64,000 nt of DNA from Obelidium mucronatum (taxonomy: Eukaryota; Chytridiomycota; Chytridiomycetes; Chytridiales; Chytriomycetaceae), in NCBI GenBank assembly GCA_025765595.1, contig JAIVFH010000097.1:1-64000 (forward strand). The letters are read 5' to 3'. This document shows, one piece after another, positions 7,579-62,245 of the stretch. A program made the translations under genes and the position numbers. The notes below the pieces were generated by a model. That model worked only from the letters and a program-made list of their open reading frames with translations, was not told the origin of the DNA and did not search any database. How positions within the stretch are numbered: the stretch's first letter is position 1; each line of letters starts with the position of its first letter.

Positions 7579-8862
7579 ATGCCACCGCCAAACAAATCCT
7601 CAGCTGATATGCCACTTGTCTTTGACTGCCTGTGGACCCTCGAGAAAAGCAAAGCAAGGTGCCCACACACGTTCAACACTGCCGACGAACTCTTTATCCA
7701 CCTCTCCGAAGACCACATTGGCCGCAAGGCTCTCGGAACACTAGTACTTACCTGCGAATGGGCTGGCTGCATCCACAAGACCCGCCTCTTTGCCAAGCGA
7801 GACAATGCCGTTAGTCACGTCAGATCGCATGTCCATTTCCGCGCCAACATCTGCAAGGACTGCGGCTCGCAGTTCAAGTGGCCGCAGGACCTCAAGAAGC
7901 ACTGCGCCAAGAACGGCTGCGAGTACGTCGAGCCGGAGTTCAAGGGAAAGCCGGGCCCGTCGCCAGTGTTTGTTGTCGAAGCCGAGGACGGGTCCGGGCC
8001 GACGCTTGTGCGCTTCGGGCCCAGTCTGACCGGCGGCCGCCAGAAAGCCGTTCAGCGCCGCCCGACGCTCACCGCGCCGCTGAAGTCCGGCGCCGACGCC
8101 ACCCAGCCGGCGCCGACCCTCGCCGCCCCTGGTTTGCACACGCATGAAGCGGCGCAGCCCACGCAGTCGCCGTCGCCGCAGTTGGCGCCGCCGCTTTCGC
8201 CGGCCGCCTCACAAGCCGGCGCAAGCCCGGTACCGGCAACACGCGCCGTGTCGAAATTGCCGGGCGTCCTGTCGCTGCTGGCGGGTGCGCCTGCGTCTCC
8301 GACCCTGTCGCCGGCGCTTGGCGGCTCGGCGGCGGCCGGCGCAGACGCCCAGGCGGTGAGTCGCCATACTCAAAGTGCGTCCTACGTTACACCATCTCCT
8401 GAAGGAGCCACCCGGCACCCGCCTCAACCTCAAGCCAGTCATCGTAATGAGCAGTACCATCAAGAACATTCAACCTGTGTCTATCCTGGTGATGGTGGTT
8501 ACTGCGGCCAATCCCAGCCACCACATTCCCACTTTGTTTCTGAGCCAACCCCTATTTATCCCTCACACCACAATCAAGCCAACCAATTTATTCGTGAACA
8601 TCAACCTCAGCATTTCCATCCTTATCAGAGAAATGTGCCAGTGCGAACCAGTCATCACCAAGTTCAAGAGAGAAATTATCACTCTCATCCATACCACCCA
8701 CCTAACCCGAGTCAAAGCGGTTATTACACGCAGCATCCATCAGTACATCATCAGCCGGGATTTGCTCCACCGCAACACGTTCCGAGCCAACATCATCAAT
8801 ACTACACCATCCACCCGCCATATCACCAAAACAAACCTGAATGGGTTCCTTCCCATTACTAG
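7579..8862 (+). CDS. PacC/Rim101-like C2H2 zinc-finger regulator B (intronless)
   Basis: Single exon, 427 aa, ATG at 7579 (MPPPNKSSADMPLVFDCLW). The upstream TTG-initiated extension was not used. Finger 1 is CLW..C..HLSEDHIGRK, finger 2 CEWAGC..KRDNAVSHVRSHV and finger 3 CKDCGSQFKWPQDLKKHC, the order and spacing of PacC/Rim101. Directly after comes a conserved stretch (GKPGPSPVFVVEAEDG, then LVRFGPSLTGGRQK) shared with C and E. The tail is Ala/Pro-rich, then His/Tyr/Gln-rich (HPPYHQN). GC content is very high from 7900 to 8360, unlike the flanks. It lacks the intron that splits the FKW codon in A, D and E. It is a tandem partner of C, of identical length. Confidence 0.85.
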   Translation: MPPPNKSSADMPLVFDCLWTLEKSKARCPHTFNTADELFIHLSEDHIGRKALGTLVLTCEWAGCIHKTRLFAKRDNAVSHVRSHVHFRANICKDCGSQFKWPQDLKKHCAKNGCEYVEPEFKGKPGPSPVFVVEAEDGSGPTLVRFGPSLTGGRQKAVQRRPTLTAPLKSGADATQPAPTLAAPGLHTHEAAQPTQSPSPQLAPPLSPAASQAGASPVPATRAVSKLPGVLSLLAGAPASPTLSPALGGSAAAGADAQAVSRHTQSASYVTPSPEGATRHPPQPQASHRNEQYHQEHSTCVYPGDGGYCGQSQPPHSHFVSEPTPIYPSHHNQANQFIREHQPQHFHPYQRNVPVRTSHHQVQERNYHSHPYHPPNPSQSGYYTQHPSVHHQPGFAPPQHVPSQHHQYYTIHPPYHQNKPEWVPSHY

Positions 8863-26670: not shown

Positions 26671-26881
26671 CCCTAGGTAGTCCCTTAGAGTCCCTGGGAT
26701 CAATCCCTAGCTTTACCTTATGTGCCTGGGATCAATCCCTAGGAAGTCCCTGAGAGTCCCTGGGATCAACCCCTAGGTTAGCCTTATGTGCCTGGGATCG
26801 AATCCTAGGAAGCCGCTTAGAGTCCCTGGGATCGACCCCTAGCTTTTTGCCTTATGTGCCTGGGATCAATCCCTAGGAGGT
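26671..26881. repeat. 67-bp minisatellite, about 3.3 copies
   Basis: Tandem units contain CCTGGGATCAATCCCTAG twice each, separated by GTCCCTGAGAGT and CCTTATGTG. Each 18-mer has an inner inverted repeat (GGGAT/ATCCC). Unit length is about 67 bp with point differences. There is no coding potential. Confidence 0.75.
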
Positions 26882-27427
26882 CAACTCCTTGCAGAAATTC
26901 AGTTTCACATAGTATGTCCAGAAATCTCAACTCATCTAAATCATCTCAAATTCATCAAAATATCTGTGAGTATTTGAAATGCATCTTTCTGTCTCTGAAA
27001 TAGAAGCAATTATTCCTTATATTTAAAATGCATCTAATTGTATCTAAAATGCAAGGAAATCATTTCTTTTATTTGAAATGCATCACGTTGCATTTGAGAT
27101 CCCTGAAATACAACAAACGCATCAAAATTCATTTCGGCAAAACCCCCTGTTTCCTGATGAAGTCCAGAGTTGAGGACTTAATAATAATATACTGCTCAAT
27201 AAGATGTTTGAAAAATTAAGGGGGTGTGCTATTTTAATGAAGGCGTTATAACGAATCAGAAACGACCTCCACCTGTCGTACATCATCGAATCCTCACAGA
27301 GCCCAACAAGAGGTCCTGACAAGAGTAGGCCGTGATGCCAAATGGAAATGGAAATGTCCCCACCATCTAGGCGATTTTATTGGTAAATCTCGGCACCTTG
27401 TTTGCTGGATCGCCCAGCCAAAATTAA
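26882..27427. other. Intergenic with AT-rich repeat patch
   Basis: From 26920 to 27120 the motif ATTTGAAATGCATC and variants recur, resembling the patch at 23440-23700. From 27120 to 27427 no gene or repeat is seen; it should contain the promoter of seven-helix copy 3. Confidence 0.4.
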
Positions 27428-32934: not shown

Positions 32935-35311
32935 ATGGTGATCCTGAAACTGTTGATTGCGACGGCGGCAGCCATAGGAAGCGTTACAGCACAGCAGACT
33001 CTCGATACTACAAATAATGGTGCGTGAGTTGGCCAATCCGTTCGCTTTTGGAGAGATAGGACATAGTGGCGAAGAATCTGGAGATACAAGCGGAGGTCCA
33101 ATTTACAACTCTTTATGGATATGCTGGATCAATCCACACCATTCAAAAGTCCCATACAGCCATATATTTCTTAAAAAGTAGTCTGAGAAGAGTTATAGAG
33201 GAAATGTGAAAGCGGCATTCGGGATGGGCTTGTGGTTCTTCAAATCAAAGAAAGCGAGAGTGTCTTCTCAATTACTCAAAAAAGAGGAGGAGCTAAAACT
33301 ATTATTCCCGTATTCCAGCTGCCGTTCTTGCTGCATGTAAAGCTGCCATGCCAGCCCTGAAGCAATTCTTCCCAGACAATAACTCTGGATTGGGATCATG
33401 GATCGAAACATATACGGACAAACGAGGACTGATTCAATGGCACGAAACTGGTATGTATGCATCGTTCCTTGGAGTTAAAATTAACACGGTTGAAACTTAG
33501 GAATTTATTGGGACTTTTTCTATCAGTACTATGGATTCACTGGAGATGCCACTTACAACGACTGGGTGGATTTACAAATGCAATTAGCTGTTGGACCCAA
33601 CGTTGGATTTCTGGATGCAATGTCTGCAACGGTACGTTTTTCAAATGCCATTTTTTTCTTGGGTGTAAGAGGATTATACAACAATTTTATTCGTCCAGAC
33701 TGGTCGTTGGAATGATGATATCGGATGGTGGGGGCTGGCTGTATTGACAGCGGCAGAGTCTACAAAGAATGGTATCATTGCACCCAAAAACATCATTGAT
33801 GGTGGCAATCCAAAATACATTGACGTCGCAAACAACACATACTTTCAAATGTATGGGGTAAGTTGCCAAACCCAAATCAGTCATTTTTTTGCGCAGCAAC
33901 TCAAGAATATTTTTTTCAGGATTGGGATGATTCTTGTGGTGGAGGCATGTTTTGGTCGCGAAATCGGCATACAAAGAAAATCAACGATGCGTACTACAAA
34001 TCGGCGATTACGAATGCTCAACACGTTGAAATGGGTGCCCGATTGTATGTATACACTGGCGGCGAAATGTACAAGAAGATTGTGGACCGAGTGTATAATT
34101 GGATGAAAACGTCCATGATGATCGATCCAGTCACTTACGCTGTGTACGACGGTCTTGATTCTCAAAGTTGCAGTCTCAGTCCAGATATGGTAAGGAGGTT
34201 CTTTTTTCACCTTTTAAATTACGAAAGCTCACATTCCCCCCGTTTGTTCCAGTACTCATACCACTTGGGAGAGCTTATTGCAGGCCTCTCAATCATGTAT
34301 AAAAAAACTCAAGACCAAACCTACCTCGACGAAGCTCACAAGTTTTTTGCCCACGTGAAATCTTTCTTCACAGTCAACAACGTTCTCTACGACCCATTAG
34401 TTGGCCCCACGCCATCCCGCCCCAATGGATACCTCTGGCCTGTATACAAGAGTCTCGGATACCTGTACGCAATCACTCCCAGCCAAACCGTCAAATCCGA
34501 CATTTCCCTGATTTTCGCCGCAACAGCACAATTCCTGTTCCAAAGTTGCGACTCGAATTGGTACTGTATTCGTAATTTGGATCCCAACACGGACCACACG
34601 CTTTGGAATGGAACTAGTCCAAGAGACCAATTTGATGTCGTTGCGTTATTGAATGCATTGGCGATGGCAACGACACCAACTGTTCAGCGTGTTCAGGATT
34701 TAACGCCGAACCCAGATGCCCAAGGTGGTAGTGGTGCTGGGGACGGGAAGAATGCGGCCTCAGCATCAGCTGGAGCGAGTCCTGCACTCATGTATGGAGG
34801 AATCGCGGGGGGTGTTGCCTTGTTGATTTTGGGTGCCATTGTTGGTGTCGTTATTTTCAGGAAGCAGAAGCAAAAGAAGGTGGAGGCTGCAATGGGCCGT
34901 CGAGGAGGCGGTGGGATTTCCAAGAACGATTATTATAATGGTCGAGGAAATGGTCGCGAAAATGAGAGAGATCGAAGAAATGACGGGTATGACTCTAGAC
35001 AACAGGAACGGGGTGGAGGTGGTGGAGGTCCGAGACCGTCCCCAGGAGCTCCACGAAAAGGACAAGCTGGACCACCAATGAGAAGTCCAGATCCGAGAAA
35101 TGAACGATCAGGGTCGAGAGGAGCTCCTGGCAATGGTGCGAGACAACAATCACAATCCCGGAACGGGGGTAGAAACGGAGGTGGTGGTGGTGGCCCACAA
35201 CGCGGAAATGACAGAGACAGGAGAAACGATGGATATGATTCCGATTCATATGAAAAAGGCCGAGGAGGTCGGGGAGGAGGCGGCGGTGGCCGCGGTAACT
35301 CTCGGCGGTAG
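32935..35311 (+). CDS. GH76 family protein 2 with membrane anchor and RGG-rich cytosolic tail
   Basis: Exons 32935-33019, 33319-33450, 33501-33631, 33699-33857, 33920-34189 and 34253-35311 give 611 aa. Signal peptide MVILKLLIATAAAIGSV. GH76 core: PALKQFFPDNNSG, QWHETGIYWDFFYQYY, GRWNDDIGWW with both catalytic Asp, CGGGMFWSRNR, YSYHLGELIAGLS. After the catalytic domain a helix (GGVALLILGAIVGVVIF) is followed by basic residues and about 130 residues of RGG/RGN-rich, Ser-poor disordered tail (GRGGRGGGGGGRGNSRR). RGG tails usually bind RNA or membranes and are unexpected on a wall enzyme. Intron 1 is unusually long (299 nt). Substrate is inferred as alpha-1,6-linked mannose in wall or GPI glycans. 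Confidence 0.88.
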
Positions 35312-52617: not shown

Positions 52618-54327
52618 ATGTTGGTTCTTCCTTTTCTCGGCGCAGTCGCTTTTGCCCAACAAACCATCGATCTGTCGAGCAAAGCAGCCGTAGTATCTGC
52701 AGCTAAGGCTGCAATGGGGCCTCTGAAGCAATTCTTTCCTTCAAACAACGCAAAGAATGGAGCCTGGATTGAACAGTACGATGATGGACACTGGCTAGTT
52801 CAATGGCATGAAAGTGGTTTGTACACTCTTCCAAGGGTAGCCTCTTCTCTGATAAGAAAAACAGGAATCTACTGGGATCTCTTTTACAAATACATGCAGT
52901 ACTCGGGTGATACTACGCACCTCTCATTTGTCGACCAGAACATTCAACTGTCGGCTGGAAGTAGCAGCGACTTCTTAGATGGATTGAATCCGATTCTCGA
53001 GATATCTGGCCGCTGGAATGACGATATTGCGTGGTGGGCTCTGGCAGCAATGACGGCTACGGAAACGTTTGGATCAAATGCGATTGTAGCTAAGGATAAG
53101 ATCCAGGACGGCTTCAATCCAACCTACTTTTCACTTGCGAATAATACATTCTATGAAATCTGGATGAATTGGGACGCGCAGTGTGGTGGTGGGGTATTCT
53201 GGTGAGACCATCTTGAATCTGGTTTTTTTTGGGTTCAACTGGTGGCTGAATGCATGAATATAGGAGCCGAAGTAGAACAACAGGAAGCAATCCCTTTGCT
53301 TAAATCGACAATCACAAATGTTGAAGAGATGGAGCTCGGCGCACGGTTATACGCTATCACAAGGAATCCCGATTACAAATCCAAGTTTGACCAAATTTAC
53401 GAATGGCTCAAGAATTCTGGATTGATTAGCTCCAGCGATTACACTGTGTACGACAGTGTCACCGTTGGAAAGTGCGATCAAGTCTCGGCAGAAGTGGTCA
53501 GAACTCTTCTTTTTTTTTTTGTTAAACCTTTTAAATCTGAATATCATTATTTGACAGTACTCCTACCATTCCGGTGAACTCCTGAGTGCACTTTCCCGTA
53601 TGTATCAAGTCTCTCAAGACCAATCTTACCTCTCCGAAGCCCACAAAGTATTCGCAGCAGTACAACGTCAATTCGTTGACTCAAAAACAAACATCCTATA
53701 TGAACCAGCCTGCCAACTCCCAGGATCCAAATGCAAATCTCCAACAGGTTATTCCTTCCCAGTATTCAAAGGACTCGCAGATCTCCACCAAGCCACTACA
53801 AACGCAACAGTGAAAGCAGCAGTTACACAAATCCTCCACGCGTCGGCAAAAGCAAACTTTGCAGGTTGCGATTCCAACTGGTATTGTATCCGGAATTTGC
53901 CAAAGGATACGTCATTTACGCTACAGAATGGGACGAATCCTCGTGATCAGTTTGAGACAGTCAGTATTCTGAATGCATTGGCTGTTGTGAATGGGGCAAA
54001 GGCAGAGACTGAGAATCCGTCCACTGCTGGAAGTGGAAACTTTTCAGCTGGAGGGAAAGGTTCAAAGGCGACTGGGAGTGAGTCGTCGTCAAATAGCAAT
54101 AGTGTGCCTGTGGGTGCACTCGCTGGGGGTGTTGCCGGTGGACTAGCATTTCTAATATCCACCGCCGCCATTATTTTCTTTTATCGCAGAAATCGCAAGC
54201 AAAGTGCTTTGGAAACGTGAGTCGTGCAATATTTTTTTATCATTGTCGAGGGTTTCGTTGTGCTTATTTATTCATCAGGACTGGCGTTCCGATGGCTGAC
54301 GATGGCTTCCTTGCAAGTTCAAAGTGA
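52618..54327 (+). CDS. GH76 family protein 8, type I membrane protein
   Basis: Exons 52618-52816, 52865-53201, 53264-53496, 53558-54216 and 54279-54327 (491 aa after correction). Start MLVLPFLGAVAFAQQ, signal peptide. Core: GPLKQFFPSNN, QWHESG, IYWDLFYKYMQYSGD, GRWNDDIAWW, CGGGVFWSRSR, YSYHSGELLSALSRMYQ, WYCIRNLPKD. The first intron is 48 nt, a multiple of three without a stop, so its retention would insert 16 residues in frame. An extra T near 53296 (after GSNP) breaks exon 3. The C-terminal helix (GGLAFLISTAAIIFFY) is followed by RRNRK and a tail ending ADDGFLASSK. Closest relatives here are GH76-10 and -2. Confidence 0.87.
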
Positions 54328-54679: not shown

Positions 54680-56800
54680 TCATTGAACAACGCAAGCCTC
54701 TTCCTGCCGCTGCTGCTTCTTTTGTGGTGTTGGTGGCACTACAGGTTTCGGTGGCCGTGGAGAGTTATTGGCAGAGTTTGGTGCAATGCGCTGAGGAGCG
54801 CCAGTTATCGCAGCAGGACTTTGTGAATTCTGTTCTGATTGCTGCCGAGAACGCGCCAACCGATCTTCTTCATTCTGAAGCGCCATGGCAAGAGCCATAC
54901 TATATAAGAATACAAGAACTTTGATTAGTTTTGAACACCAAAAAAAATAAATCTCATCGGATTGGCAGTGCAGGCTATGCAACAGAAAGGAAAGAAAAAA
55001 AAAGTAACTCACTCTGCATCTTCCGATTTGCTGCCCACCCGAACCACCACCACCACCACCACCATCAATATCAACAACCTCTCCATCCACAATCGCTTTC
55101 CAAGCCCTCTCCTGTAGACTCACATCCACATCATCCAAATTCACTTGACCACCACCACCATCCAACGCCTGATCACTCGCACTCGCCACATAGAACCCAA
55201 ACTCCGCGTCCACAAACACACAATCTCCATCCACCGTCAACGACTCCCAAACGCATTTCTTTGTGAGGAACCCTTCATCCGTGACGAGTGTGAAGAGTCC
55301 CAATTGCGGGTGATGATGTAACGTGGAGAAATGGTTGTTTCGGAAAAGGATGGCGAGGGAGTTGGGGGCGAGGGTTTTTGTGAGTTGGGTGAGACCTGTG
55401 GGTGTGAGTTGGGTGCTTGTGGAGGAGAGGAAGGATTGGGCGAGGGAGCCGAGGGTCATTCTTTTTTCCAGGGCGGGTGCGTTTTTCTTGTTGTTGTTGT
55501 TGGGTGGTTGGTTGGTTGGTTGAATAGAGTACAGTTTTTCCCTTTTCAGTTGTTGTTGTGGTATAATTGTCGAGACTGAGGGTTTCTGATTCTCGCGTCA
55601 TATCTGATATTGCAGAGTCGTTTAATCCTGATAGTTCTGTTGCAGCGATTTCTGCATCGACCAGCTGTGTGTCAATATTTTAGAGATGAATCATGTTACA
55701 AAATGGAAACATGGTACTATGGGTTACCGCTTTTGCGGCGATGTCTTAAAGAAAGAGCACGAAAACAACATGTCGCCTTCGGCGATGGAATACCGCCTTC
55801 GGCGGTGCAGTTCTGTCTTTGGGTAAGAAAACGAAAGAACATATCGCCTTCGCGACGGATTACCGCCTTCGGCGATTGAATACCGCCTTCGGCGGTGAGA
55901 GAAGATGATATGCATCGCCTTCGGCGATTGAATACCGCCTTCGGCGGGTGCAGTTCTGTGTTTGGGATAGAGCATGAAATAAACATATCGCCTTCGGCGA
56001 TGAATTACCGCCTTCGGCGGTGAGGGAAGATGGGCGGTGCAGAAAACGAAAGAACATATCGCCTTCGGCGATGAATAACCGCCTTCGGCGATGGCACAAA
56101 AAAAAACTCAACTGCCTCCAAAAGCTGATTATACGATCTTAATTCAGAAAACCCACCGATTCCAACAACTTTTCCAACATTTTTTTTGTAGAGTATCCTG
56201 AATACTGCTAGAACCTCCTCCTCCTTCAAGTGATTCAAATTCAACAAGTTGTGTAGCATCAACGGTATCATCGACAGAAGGTATCCAACCATGACAAGCA
56301 TCCACTCCAAAAGCCTTGAAAAGACCCAAAGAAGGAGAATCTTCAACCCAAAAACCGAATCAAACGTGACATTGATATCAAGACCGTCACGGAGAGTGGG
56401 GAGGAGTGTGATGGCCTGCATCAAGTTGAGGTTGCCTCCTCCTTCGCCACCTGGAAGCGACTTTATAAAAATAGATTTGTAAGACCAACAACTCCGATGG
56501 ATTTGAAGAAAAGAAAAAAAGAAAGAGAGGGGTTGGTACTTCTGTAGAGTTATTCTCGCTCTTCAAGTTCTCTGTGCTGCTCTTCCGTACGAGGTAGTCG
56601 CCCAACAGCTCGACGAGTGCATCGAAAGAAATACTCTGTTGTTCTTTGCGAATGACAATGTCGCCTCGAAGCAGCAGAATATTTGCCAGAGCCAGCAGAG
56701 GACACGGCCCGTTCTCGTTCTGAGTCAGGATGCGAGTGGTCTGGCCGACATCTTTGAGTTTGAAGTTACTGTTGGCGGTGTTCTTATTTTCTGAGTTCAT
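54680..56800 (-). CDS. MINDY-type (FAM63) deubiquitinase
   Basis: Exons 56800-56540, 56450-56113, 55664-55013 and 54899-54680. The N terminus has the MINDY catalytic segment TQNENGPCPLLALANILLLRG (Cys in GPCPLL); then LLPTLRDGLDINVTF, ACHGWIP with the expected catalytic His, RSYNQLLEA, and LAILFRNNHFSTLHHHPQL, LVTDEGFL, CVWESL. MINDY enzymes trim K48-linked ubiquitin chains. The last exon carries LAMALQNEEDRLA, like the ubiquitin-binding MIU of the family, then a Pro-rich end. Several one-base indels break the frame: near 56355 (a lost base), in the A8 run at about 56187, near 55500, in a G run near 55032, and one at the first donor. Intron 3 (448 nt) is filled with hairpin repeats. Confidence 0.82.
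55773..56092 (-). repeat. Hairpin repeat array 1 (in MINDY intron)
   Basis: About 11 units of a 13-nt near-palindrome, on the minus (sense) strand CCGCC-GAA-GGCGG or TCGCC-GAA-GGCGA, separated by 5-45 nt of varied sequence. Units with C/G and with T/A outer pairs alternate, so pairing is largely kept. The array lies wholly within the largest MINDY intron. Confidence 0.9.
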
Positions 56801-56839
56801 TTTTTTTCTTACTTTTCAATTTCATTTAATCTGCAAAGG

Positions 56840-59800
56840 ATGCAAGCGCCCCTCTTGCTTCTCCTTGCTCTGCCGCTCGCCCCCGCAGCGCCGGTGTTTG
56901 AGCTCGGCGACACAGCCGGGCTTGTGCGTGCTGGAGCGGCGGGCATGCGGGTGCTTGCAGCAGCTTTTTCGCCGCCAACAGCGGCGCGGGCGGCGCGTGG
57001 ACGGAGACGCTTGCGGGCGGGCGGCGGCTTGTTGCGTGGGCGGAGAGCGGCGAGTGTCTCGGCGCCGCGTTTGCGCGCGCGCGGCTGGGCGGCGACGCGG
57101 GCGCGCGCGCGTTTGCCGATGCGAATGCGCGGCTGTTCGACGCCGCCGGCCGCCGCAGCGACGAGGCCGCGTGGTGGGGCTTGGCGGGTGCGTGTGTGTT
57201 TGATTTCAGTCCATCTGACTAAAAGTCAACTCAGTCGCTACCGCCGCCGAGGCGTACGGCGTCGATGCCGTCATACCGCCAGACAACAGGACTCTGGGCC
57301 TGAATCCAACCTACTTTTCCGTTGCAAACTAAACTTTCCAGGACGTGTGGGCCGGCTGGGATCAATCCACTTGTGCCGGCGGCATCTTTTGGAGCAAGAT
57401 CCGTGATCCAAACTCGGATCAACGTCCGTTCTTTAAGGCTACAATCACGAATGTTCAGGCAATGGAACTTGCCGCTAGATTGTATCGATTGACCAACGAT
57501 TTGAATTTCAAGATTAAGTTTGATGCCATTTTTGCTTGGTTAAAGACTACGGGAATCGTGGCTTTCGATTATACCGTTTATGATGGTCTCAATTCTAATG
57601 AATGTCGTCTTGTATTGCCTCAAGTTGTGAGTTTTGATTTTCACCGCCGAAGGCGGTGGTGTACCGCCGAAGGCGGTTGTATTTCGCCGAAGGCGGTTGT
57701 ATTCCGCCGAAGGCGGTGTGTTTTTTTTCTTTTCTCAGTCACCGCCGTAGGCGGTGGTGTACCGCCGAAGGCGGTGATTTCCCGCCGAAGGCGGGGTGTT
57801 GTTTTTTTTTTCTTTGTTCAGTCACCGCCGTTGGCGGTGGTGTACCGCCGAAGGTGGTTGTATTCCGCCGAAGGCGGTTGTAATCCGCCGAAGGCGGTTG
57901 TATTCCGCCGAAGGCGGTTGTAATCCGCCGAAGGCGGTGTGTTTTTTTTTTTTCTTTCTTAGTCACCGCCGTAGGCGGTGGTGTACCGCCGAAGGCGGTG
58001 ATGTCCCGCCGAAGGCGGTGTGTTGTTGTTTTTTCTTTTCTCAATCACCGCCGAAGGCGGTGTGTTGTTGTTTTTCTTTTCTCAATCAACCGCCGAAGGC
58101 GGTGTGTTGTTTTTTTTCTTGGCTCAGTCACCGCCGTTGGCGGTGGTATACCGCCGAAGGCGGTGTGTTTTTTTTTTTCTTTGCTCAGTCACCGCCATAG
58201 GCGGTGTATCCCATCCTTCTATTATCCTTATCCTTCTCCATCCTCTCTCTTCTTATTCACCCTTCCTTCCACAACTAAAACAAAAACAAAAAACAAAATA
58301 CAGTACTCCTACAACTCTGGCGTACTCCTCTCTGCCCTCTCCATCATGTACAAAGCGACAAACGAAACCTTCTACATCAACGAAGCCTCAAGCATCTTCA
58401 ATGCAATCGTCAGAGACTTTACAACCGCCAACGTTCTCGACCGCGAACCTTCCTGCCTCGCAGGCGTCGCCCTCTGCAAATCCCCCACCGGCTATTACTG
58501 GCCAGTCTACAAAGGAATCGCCGACCTATACACTTCAACGACAAGCAAGCCGATTCAAGTGATTGCTGCCAATGTCTTGACGGAATCTGCAAAAGTGAAT
58601 TTTGCTACTAGATGCGATGACAATTGGTATTGTGTTCGGAATTTGCCTCCTACAACTCAGGACACTATGTTGAATGGAACCAACCCACGTGATCAGTTTG
58701 AGACAATGTTTCTTTTGAATGCTCTCTTGCAAGTCAGTCTTGGGGCAGAGATTGGTGCCGGTATCGGTGCTGGATCTGTGGATACTCCATTGGTCGGAGC
58801 AACTCAAACTATTGAAAACTCCTCCTCTTCTTCTTCATCGTCATCTTCAAATTCTCCTTCTTCAACGACAAACGTGGGTGCTATTGTTGGCGGTGTGATT
58901 GGAGGTATTGCTGCGTTGGGACTGTTGGTTGCTTTCTGTTGCTACAAAAAGAGGAGCACAATGCAAAACGAAACCGGAATCTTAAAGATGCGGAACACGG
59001 ATCTCAATTGCGTCAAGAACTGCGTTGGAGATTCAGATTCATTCTTGGTTAGCAGTAGCATTGTTGCTACAAAGAGTGTAAACTCTGCTGGCTATTCGAA
59101 TTTGGGTTCTGTTCCTCCCTCTGTGCCTGAAAAGGATGTTGTTGCTGCTGCTCCTGTGGTACCGGTTACTGCTGCTGCTGTTCTTGGGGTTGGTGGTATC
59201 GGCGCTACGATTGCTGCTGCTAGATCTGCACCTGTCACTAATGAGAGCGAGGATGTTCCCCATCCTCTTGCCAAATCTTCTGACTCAGTAAACACTCGTT
59301 TGGTCAATGCCGCAGCAGCTGGGATCGCAATCGTCGCAACTGCAGAACCAGAACAAGAACAAGGCAACTCTCAAAACATTGAACCAGAAGATTCCATCGA
59401 TTCCGACATGTACCCACAACCCGAAGTCGAAAGCGATGATGACAATGAAGACGAAGAGAACGAGGCGATGAAATAGACAACACTGCAAACGACGACGGCG
59501 ACGCCTGACGACGAAGAGATTCCAACCTATGAAGAATTCTCGACAATCCGATCCTTCCGATCCAAAAAGTCTGGGAAATCTGTCCGCTTCAATTCCGTAA
59601 TCGAATCGCATTCCCCTGTAATGTCGCAATTGCATCAACAGCAAAGCGCCGAGTCCGTGTATAGCAAGAGTAGCGCAGAGAGACCGGGAGAGGATTTGAT
59701 GCTTGCGTTGGATTCTGTTGGAGTGAGGAAGTCGTTGATGGAGAATGTGGATGTGGCGCATGTGATGATGTATGCAGCGTCTTTGGAAGAAATGCCTGCT

Positions 59801-60640: not shown

Positions 60641-62245
60641 ATGATCTTGCAGAACCTCATTGTTCCTGTTCTTGCTGCCGCCGGTGCTCTTGCCCAGCAG
60701 AACATTGATCTTACAAGCAAGAGTAAGCATTCGGATTGTTTTCGTCGTATGGCATGCAAACTGATCATTGGTTTTTTCCTCCCCTCCCCTTCAAAAGCGG
60801 CTGTACTCGCTGCCTGCCAAGGCATCCATGGGTCCGTTGAAGCAATTCTTCCCAGCCAACACTCGCAACAATGGAGCATGGATCGAGCAATACGATAACA
60901 CTCACTGGCTTGTGCAATGGCATGAGAGTGGTAATGTCAAATTAAAAACCGATTAGTAACACCCACCCCCCTACCGAGCACGAGCTTATTTACCATCCAT
61001 TCTTACAGGAATGTACTGGGACCTTTTCTACAAATACATGCAATACTCTGGCGACACGACACACCTCTCCTTCGTGGACTCCAACATCCAACTCGCCACG
61101 TTAGGAAACAATGACTTTTTGGACGGCGCCAATCCGTTTATTGAGCTCGCGGGTCGTTGGAACGATGATATTCTGTGGTGGGCGATTGCTGTGACGACGG
61201 CTGCTGAGACTTTTGGGAAGGATGCGATTGTTGCAAAGGATAATGTTCAGGCGGGGATGAATCCAACGTATTTCACGTTGGCGAATACTACGTTTCATCA
61301 GGCTTGGAATCAGTGGGATAACGCTTGTGGGGGTGGGATTTACTGGTATTTGGCTTTCCTTTTTTTTTTCAAGTTAGTGTTCATGTATTCAACCGGAAAA
61401 AAAGGAGTCGAGCACGATCTTCTGGTAGAGATCCAAACTTGAAATCCACAATCACAAATGTTCAAGAAATGGAAGTCGGTGCGCGTTTGTATGCAATGAC
61501 TAAAGTCGAGGATTACAAGACGAAAGTGGACCAGCTTCTTGCTTGGTTGAAGACTTCTGGGATTATTGCAAAAGACTATACTGTCTATGATGGGGTTCGG
61601 TCCACTTCTTGTGGAACCGTTAGCCCAGAAATTGTAAGCTTTTTGTTTTTTGACCCGGTTATATACACAAGCTAAACAACAGAACATCTACTTTTCTAGT
61701 ACTCTTACCACTATGGAGAACTCTTTGCAGCATTAGCCTCAATGTACCAAACCACAAAAACCCAATCTTACTTGGACGAAGCCAACAAACTCTTCACAGC
61801 CTTCAAACGCCTCTTTGTCGACGCCAACACCAACATCATCTCCATCGAACCCTTCTGCCCAGCTCCATCCTGCAGATCGCCTTCCGGATTCCTTTTCCCA
61901 GTATACCGTGGGTTAGGAGAACTCTACGTTGCTTCCAACGATGAATCTATTCGTACACAAATCGCCGCGATTGTCCGTGCGTCTGCGGCGAATAACTTTA
62001 AGGGCTGCGATTCCAATTGGTATTGCATGAGGAATATGGATCCAAGTGTTGGGAGCACCTTGTTGAATGGTAACAAATGTGAGAGATCAGTTTGAGACTG
62101 TTAGTATTTTGAATTCGCTGGCGGTTATCAATGGGGCCAAGGCTACTATTACTAGTAAGCCGGTGGCGACTACTACTTCGGGAGCGGTTTCTGGTGGTGC
62201 TTTGTCGGTTGTTGGTTTGTTATTCTTGCGGCTCTTTTGCTTTAA
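60641..62245 (+). CDS. GH76 family protein 10, probably GPI-anchored
   Basis: Exons 60641-60722, 60798-60930, 61009-61345, 61405-61633 and 61700 to about 62245. Signal peptide MILQNLIVPVLAAAGALA. Core: QWHESGMYWDLFYKYMQYSGD, GRWNDDILWW with both Asp, CGGGIYWSRAR, YSYHYGELFAALASMYQ, WYCMRNMDPS. Single-base insertions at about 60817 (AACKASMG) and 62072 (LNGTNVRDQ) break the frame. The end ALSVVGL then reads ILAALLL-stop after another one-base change near 62220, giving a short hydrophobic end without basic residues, as in GH76-1; the uncorrected frame instead runs on into the next gene. Role as in GH76-1. Confidence 0.8.

Follow-up and report, generated by a model that had tools for sequence, protein, structure and literature searches.

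Sense-oriented hairpin arrays in introns of the chytrid Obelidium mucronatum: a dispersed nuclear family possibly recognised as coding-strand DNA

The DNA analysed here (the window) comprises positions 1 to 64,000 of contig JAIVFH010000097.1 of the chytrid Obelidium mucronatum (GenBank assembly GCA_025765595.1). A deubiquitinase gene (MINDY, minus strand) and a glycosyl hydrolase gene (GH76-9, plus strand) lie side by side in it as a divergent pair, and each carries an intron filled with tandem copies of a short hairpin, of which the 13-mer CCGCCGAAGGCGG is the exact form. The hairpin family extends well beyond the window, and wherever a cluster in the sampled stretches could be tied to a gene its GNA loop lay on the coding strand. 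A sequence-only reading of the window had proposed that the element works, or spreads, as RNA; recognition as exposed coding-strand DNA is tentatively preferred below.

Two arrays in divergent neighbouring genes

The window was scanned for CCGCCGAAGGCGG at up to two mismatches, which gave 37 rows, whereas dinucleotide shuffles gave 0.77 on average and never more than 4. Ten rows make up a minus-strand array and 21 a plus-strand array, five are plus-array sites matched again on the opposite strand, and one is a lone two-mismatch match at 8191. The arrays and the parts of their host genes are as follows.

54683..55597, minus strand: open frame containing the MINDY exon downstream of the array (MINDY_DUB 163-264)
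55666..56112, minus strand: approximate MINDY intron containing the array, by eye, its ends less certain than those of the GH76-9 intron
55773..56091, minus strand: 10-hairpin array in the MINDY intron, CCGCC/TCGCC-GAA-GGCGG/GGCGA, coding-strand loop GAA
56116..56478, minus strand: open stretch upstream of the MINDY array, weak MINDY_DUB 81-107 (E 0.0047), exon borders approximate
56531..56800, minus strand: MINDY first exon, end approximate, MINDY_DUB 12-80, predicted start codon at 56800
56798..56842, no strand: compact divergent promoter region, predicted MINDY (minus) and GH76-9 (plus) start codons about 40 bp apart, by eye
57342..57626, plus strand: GH76-9 exon preceding the array (Glyco_hydro_76 124-209)
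57627..58303, plus strand: GH76-9 intron containing the array, 677 nt, GTGAGT...ACAG, the GH76 profile split around the array
57644..58204, plus strand: 21-hairpin array in the GH76-9 intron, coding-strand loops GAA 16, GTA 2, GTT 2, ATA 1
58304..59473, plus strand: GH76-9 exon following the array (Glyco_hydro_76 207-275)

Both arrays are located in introns. The GH76 Pfam profile breaks at 209 before the plus-strand array and restarts at 207 after it, and the MINDY_DUB profile flanks the minus-strand array (12-80 and the weak 81-107 before, 163-264 after). The MINDY donor was read by eye and lies either 21 or 65 nt ahead of the first hairpin. Hairpin repeats of the same sense in introns of both neighbours, as the sequence-only reading had described, were thus confirmed by the scan and the flanking profiles; its estimate of about 11 and 21 copies compares with 10 and 21 counted, decayed copies in the MINDY array accounting for the former figure. 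The stem exchanges it had listed (C-G for T-A, plus T-G, or U-G, pairs) were seen as claimed, and its GAA loop was found on the coding strand of both genes, except that 5 of the 21 GH76-9 loops are the variants given above. A coding repeat was considered and rejected, as the arrays fall between pieces of conserved domains and a translated array had no homologue (E 0.001, 8,000 candidates scored).

The GH76-9 intron was compared with the corresponding site in paralogs within the window.

34190..34252, plus strand: GH76 paralog intron at the same site, 63 nt, without hairpins
61634..61699, plus strand: second GH76 paralog intron at the same site, 66 nt, without hairpins

A third paralog has the acceptor site at 53557 in common, its comparison covering the acceptor. 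Because the paralogs have an intron of 63-66 nt where GH76-9 has one of 677, the array grew inside an older intron, which a 13-nt hairpin has lengthened about tenfold. An introner (intron gain) was rejected in this single case examined, two paralogs retaining the short intron at the site. Between 17555 and 62849 the window holds GH76 genes and fragments in which this one site has a short intron, an array-filled intron or none (41127, 43166).

An abundant hairpin with a six-base-pair stem and a GNA loop

The genome was surveyed over 48.3 Mb in 694 contigs. The exact 13-mer occurred 1,752 times (908 + 844), compared with 3 for a reversed-word control, and the 11-mer core CGCCGAAGGCG (CGCC-GAA-GGCG) 2,706 times, compared with 41. 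Cores paired 6-12 nt apart were also found in 15 viral and at least 117 prokaryotic stretches; among the viral stretches and the 80 prokaryotic ones listed there was one pair per stretch, except in one viral and three prokaryotic stretches, and these pairs were taken as background. Three bacterial contigs (L111, L119, L126) have 2-3 core pairs per stretch, perhaps by coincidence or as terminator-like hairpins. A phage origin was dropped after a search of a phage collection gave no match.

In the 2,706 cores, the pair next outside CGCC-GAA-GGCG was Watson-Crick in 2,335 (C-G 1752, T-A 317, A-T 247, G-C 19), with T-G in 152, C-A in 48 and other combinations in 171. Covariation was tested with 242 GNA-loop hairpins from 21 sequences of fetched DNA against shuffled pairings, each locus counting each state once. 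The first outer pair was paired in 68 of 93 (shuffle mean 41.4, reached by 0 of 2000 shuffles) and the second in 45 of 93 (mean 30.5, 2 of 2000). The third, fourth and fifth pairs had no clear excess (13 vs. 27.7, the third lying below its shuffles; 17 vs. 22.0; 25 vs. 20.4, 268 of 2000), and among shifted controls the largest excess was 38 vs. 30.9 (107 of 2000), with none in the others. As the two outer pairs beat their shuffles and the third to fifth do not, the stem is six base pairs long, of which the inner four (CGCC/GGCG) are nearly fixed and the outer two covary. At the outermost pair of the 13-mer, the T-G wobble exceeds its mirror mismatch C-A genome-wide, by 152 to 48 copies, and by 72 to 28 clusters (p = 1.3e-5, contigs up to C136).

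Words of the form CGCCNNNGGCG numbered 5,782 genome-wide, 4,732 above a control of 1,050. The loop GAA was counted 2,706 times, GTA 1,078 and GGA 177 (controls 41, 19 and 13), and these three, the loops counted apart from GCA, less their controls make up about 82% of the excess. About 82% of the loops above control therefore show the N4-type pattern, a C-G closing pair with G as first and A as third loop base. According to PMC4496689, on phage N4 hairpins, and to Yoshizawa 1997 as cited in PMC6479982, hairpins extruded by negatively supercoiled DNA follow the C-GNA-G rule, and the two strands differ. For DNA minihairpins, PMC6479982 reports GAA as melting 6 C above GTA and places GTT outside the rule. 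GAA is also the most frequent loop here.

Spacing from hairpin to hairpin was most often 20 nt (64 intervals, 13 loci) and was 19 nt in 18 intervals of 6 loci, the two amounting to 82 intervals; longer runs and single hairpins occur too. In introns the first hairpin mostly lies 13-26 nt past the donor and up to 52 nt in others (donors by eye; MINDY 21 or 65). Spacer sequences differ between most loci, and flank words such as GATCCCTACCGCCGAA are common to three distant loci (L031, L038, L049; L-numbers denote fetched stretches). Shared flank words and regular spacing point to a unit that was probably dispersed and then copied locally.

Orientation and arrangement relative to genes

To the window were added 20 stretches around listed copies, taken in contig order from C1 to part of C7 and chosen before gene sense was examined. 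Together with the window these held 33 clusters; one later stretch, picked as an apparent exception, makes 34. Gene models were built with a coding model trained on array-masked DNA and a two-strand gene model. Single two-mismatch matches were not counted as clusters (10: the one at 8191 in the window and nine in stretches). The nine include at least three compensated hairpins (L035:7080, L044:3979, L047:2430), which stayed outside the orientation count, although the first two were used as members of listed neighbour pairs. Two of the 34 clusters were coding coincidences and were dropped: L036:490, in an IFT52-like exon by eye (the domain was found in the neighbouring exon), and L043:5038, TCTP-like by eye.

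A gene could be assigned to 25 of the 32 non-coding clusters, and every one of the 25 has the GNA loop on the coding strand (for 24 of 24 sense, the two-sided probability is 1.2e-7). They are the following.

Sense clusters: window (two), L032, L033, L034 (two), L035, L036:4974, L037, L038, L039, L041 (two), L042 (two)
Sense clusters, continued: L044, L045, L046, L047 (two), L048:5038, L048:6975, L049:3900, L050, L051
Arrays with a sense-strand Pfam domain directly beside them or on both sides (11 of 25): MINDY, GH76, PP1-like phosphatase (L032), GH35 (L034, two arrays), muskelin (L036), ABC transporter (L039)
Pfam-flanked arrays, continued: protein kinase (L044), Thoc5 (L046), WDR75 (L050), G-alpha (L051)

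The two-strand gene model alone put 18 of the 25 in sense introns; the other seven (window 55773, L033, L041:6607, L045, L047:6789, L048:6975, L051) were assigned from Pfam domains, the flanking coding strand or by eye. The weaker assignments are L033 and L041:6607, which rest on one flank, and L047:6789, which the model called antisense and which was re-read by eye as lying by a sense exon. L042:6064 is mixed, with two perfect-stem GNA loops in sense and one AAA loop opposite. Location in introns, as the sequence-only reading had it, held for most copies (23 of the 25 sense clusters were taken as intronic) but not for all: in L045 a 24-copy array comes after the end of the KTI12 coding sequence, the final codons and stop codon of which were read by eye, the array at L041:6607 is found upstream of a YHYH-domain gene, and a small number of other clusters appear to be intergenic. 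Across the fetched DNA, a part of the genome, copies thus favoured introns and the sense strand, and stem changes were compensated, as that reading had anticipated.

Within arrays of at least two hairpins, 221 of 231 hairpins have the majority orientation. Clusters of up to three copies were sense in 10 of 10 cases tied to a gene, with five further such clusters not tied; since the bias is already present in these, tandem growth alone does not create it. Seven clusters were not tied to a gene (L031, two; L040; L048:5558; L049, three). At L049:5893-6748, three tandem units of about 420 bp lie between minus-strand open reading frames (ORFs), with 2, 2 and 1 plus-strand GAA hairpins; these are the clearest intergenic or antisense candidates.

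Pairing of arrays was taken from 223 clusters among the matches listed, a part of all copies. Listed clusters with a neighbour within 5 kb formed 21 minus-plus, two plus-plus, two minus-minus and one plus-minus pair, with one unclear. The plus-minus pair, on C7, was discarded: once fetched it proved a single array in the G-alpha gene with 27 GNA loops on the minus and three on the plus strand. GTA- and GGA-loop arrays gave, among the matches listed, four and five minus-plus pairs (six new, three overlapping the first set), one and two tandem pairs, and no plus-minus pair. On contigs C13, C42, C44 and C92, arrays with GGA loops are paired divergently in the manner of the GAA arrays, at distances of about 1.1-1.8 kb; the middle base of the loop can therefore differ without a change in arrangement. 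Combined with the sense rule, minus-plus pairs would be arrays flanking divergent promoters, gene sense having been checked by sequence for part of the pairs. Array introns lay at a median of 958 nt from the predicted start, compared with 2,339 nt for other introns (n = 16 vs. 198, p = 0.02), in a comparison limited to genes with a predicted 5' end within the stretch and based on rough gene models, the 16 taking in L031:5757 and the coding coincidence in L043.

Interpretation and relation to known elements

Taken together, the sense orientation of the loops, the covariation of the stem and the C-GNA-G motif suggest recognition of a single strand; RNA and coding-strand DNA both fit. The sense bias and covariation on which the sequence-only reading built its RNA proposal hold, but RNA does not follow from them, because a hairpin in coding-strand DNA predicts the same sense bias, covariation and tolerance of U-G or T-G. 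For the C-GNA-G loop and for divergent pairing, single-stranded DNA is at least as good a fit as RNA. The reading preferred, at a probability of roughly 0.4, is that of a dispersed, mobile nuclear hairpin family (6-bp stem, C-GNA-G triloop) that spread through genes and multiplied in tandem, mostly in introns, recognised as coding-strand DNA near divergent promoters. Where two genes are transcribed divergently, negative supercoiling between them is expected to increase. Behind RNA polymerase, chiefly between divergent genes, DNA would be negatively supercoiled and the coding strand exposed, and a C-GNA-G hairpin would be unusually stable there as single-stranded DNA, only on the GNA strand. 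The extruded hairpin would then be recognised by a strand-specific factor, or by repair or replication slippage; insertion and amplification would leave the GNA loop on the sense strand, and introns would tolerate array growth. DNA is preferred because of the C-GNA-G extrusion rule, the supercoiling of divergent transcription and the bias already present at one to three copies. That DNA and not RNA is recognised, that supercoiling underlies the divergent pairing and that an enzyme is involved are points we infer. Doubtful, though worth stating, is a bolder form: a mobile hairpin of the nuclear genome that senses whether DNA is transcribed, recognised only as exposed coding-strand C-GNA-G, with supercoiling at divergent promoters setting insertion and growth, the copies forming a fossil record of germ-line transcription and its direction.

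Several observations weigh against recognition as coding-strand DNA. Sense orientation and covariation are explained equally well by RNA. Non-GNA loops occur in array sense within arrays (AAA 16 and ATA 6 of 29) and break the GNA rule. Energy models found both strands and all eight loops tried equally stable, so the strand preference rests on published measurements, and phage N4 carries its stable hairpin on the template strand. The gene model places L031:5757 and three L049 clusters in minus-strand introns, hence antisense; by ORF ends they may be intergenic, and they count against a universal sense rule. Relative intron order did not differ between array and other introns (0.61 vs. 0.59), and some arrays lie far from gene starts (L039) or past a stop codon (L045). 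At the inner pair, changes of the T-G and C-A kinds are equally frequent (29 vs. 30 copies, 25 vs. 21 clusters), which weakens the wobble excess at the outermost pair. A transposase, a target duplication, an empty site or a direct sign of single-stranded DNA was in no case found or successfully sought.

RNA is the main rival explanation, at well below even odds, with pre-mRNA hairpins bound at the GNA loop or shortening long introns for splicing, or with movement through an RNA intermediate, whose insertion into transcripts would likewise give sense copies only. The 25 of 25 sense clusters, 23 of them intronic, the covarying outer pairs, the surplus of U-G over C-A at the outermost pair and the usual position of the first hairpin soon after the donor all agree with it; divergent pairing has no obvious RNA reason, one array lies past a stop codon, some clusters look intergenic and the inner pair lacks the wobble excess. 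No family reached the Rfam threshold: Rfam gave 0 matches in the window, and of two sub-threshold array matches the better scored 26 bits against 52 required. Insertion in both orientations, with antisense copies purged (through harm to splicing or early transcript ends, e.g. at A-rich spacers) and the hairpin serving only to spread, appears improbable. Sense spacers are often pyrimidine-rich, and the four possibly antisense clusters outside clear introns are what selection acting in introns only would leave; single copies with no evident pyrimidine tract (L036:4974, L048:5038) are nevertheless also sense, pyrimidine content is about the same on the two flanks of hairpin pairs (0.64 after, 0.67 before), and purging leaves the loop rule and divergent pairing unexplained. 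Very unlikely, finally, is that the arrays enhance expression from 5'-proximal introns, in the manner of intron-mediated enhancement, and were retained on either side of promoters that two genes share. Divergent pairing and the shorter distance of array introns from the predicted start speak for this, whereas the equal relative intron order, the arrays deep in genes (L039) or past a stop codon (L045) and a strict loop rule that enhancement does not require speak against it.

Introners and introner-like elements are intron-tied repeats in sense orientation; they are whole introns that create new ones, whereas the chytrid hairpins occupy a site already intronic in paralogs, an insertion creating a new intron being absent in the one case examined, GH76. 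Introns with intron-mediated enhancement are also sense and often near gene starts; the chytrid family differs as a defined repeated hairpin. Intron growth is usually ascribed to transposons without strict sense orientation. The nearest known kinds are mitochondrial. Double-hairpin elements (DHE), known from mitochondrial DNA of Allomyces and others, are short, dispersed and apparently mobile GC-rich hairpins that often come in pairs (mobility as cited in PMC7218506). The chytrid hairpins resemble them in length, GC content and dispersal, and perhaps in pairing and mobility. They differ in being nuclear: the arrays occupy spliceosomal introns in protein genes of nuclear type, on contigs of up to 1.1 Mb, in tandem and with GNA locked to the coding strand. 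Repetitive hairpin-forming elements (RHE) of sponge mitochondria also invade and enlarge a genome, and several conserve the stem with substitutions in the loop, as stated in the corresponding part of PMC2800124; the chytrid family has a constrained loop and a covarying outer stem. The promoter hairpins of the phage N4 virion RNA polymerase share the small stem and C-GNA-G loop; they belong to a phage promoter, and no relation by descent is claimed. In open-licence PMC, a full-text search for forms of the hairpin sequence returned only unrelated subjects, and no nuclear, sense-locked hairpin family was found in titles and abstract starts on chytrid or fungal intron hairpins, introners, sense short repeats or Obelidium introns.

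If coding-strand DNA is what is recognised, transcription-driven supercoiling would be tied to repeat insertion in a eukaryote, with a simple sequence marker; if RNA, the hairpins would be a very abundant, unstudied intronic RNA structure. Under either, the rules of orientation and pairing are sharp enough for bench testing. Apart from the hairpins and unrelated to them, a 66-bp unit (CCCTAGG...GGGATCAAT) is repeated in tandem about three times at 26671-26882 in the window.

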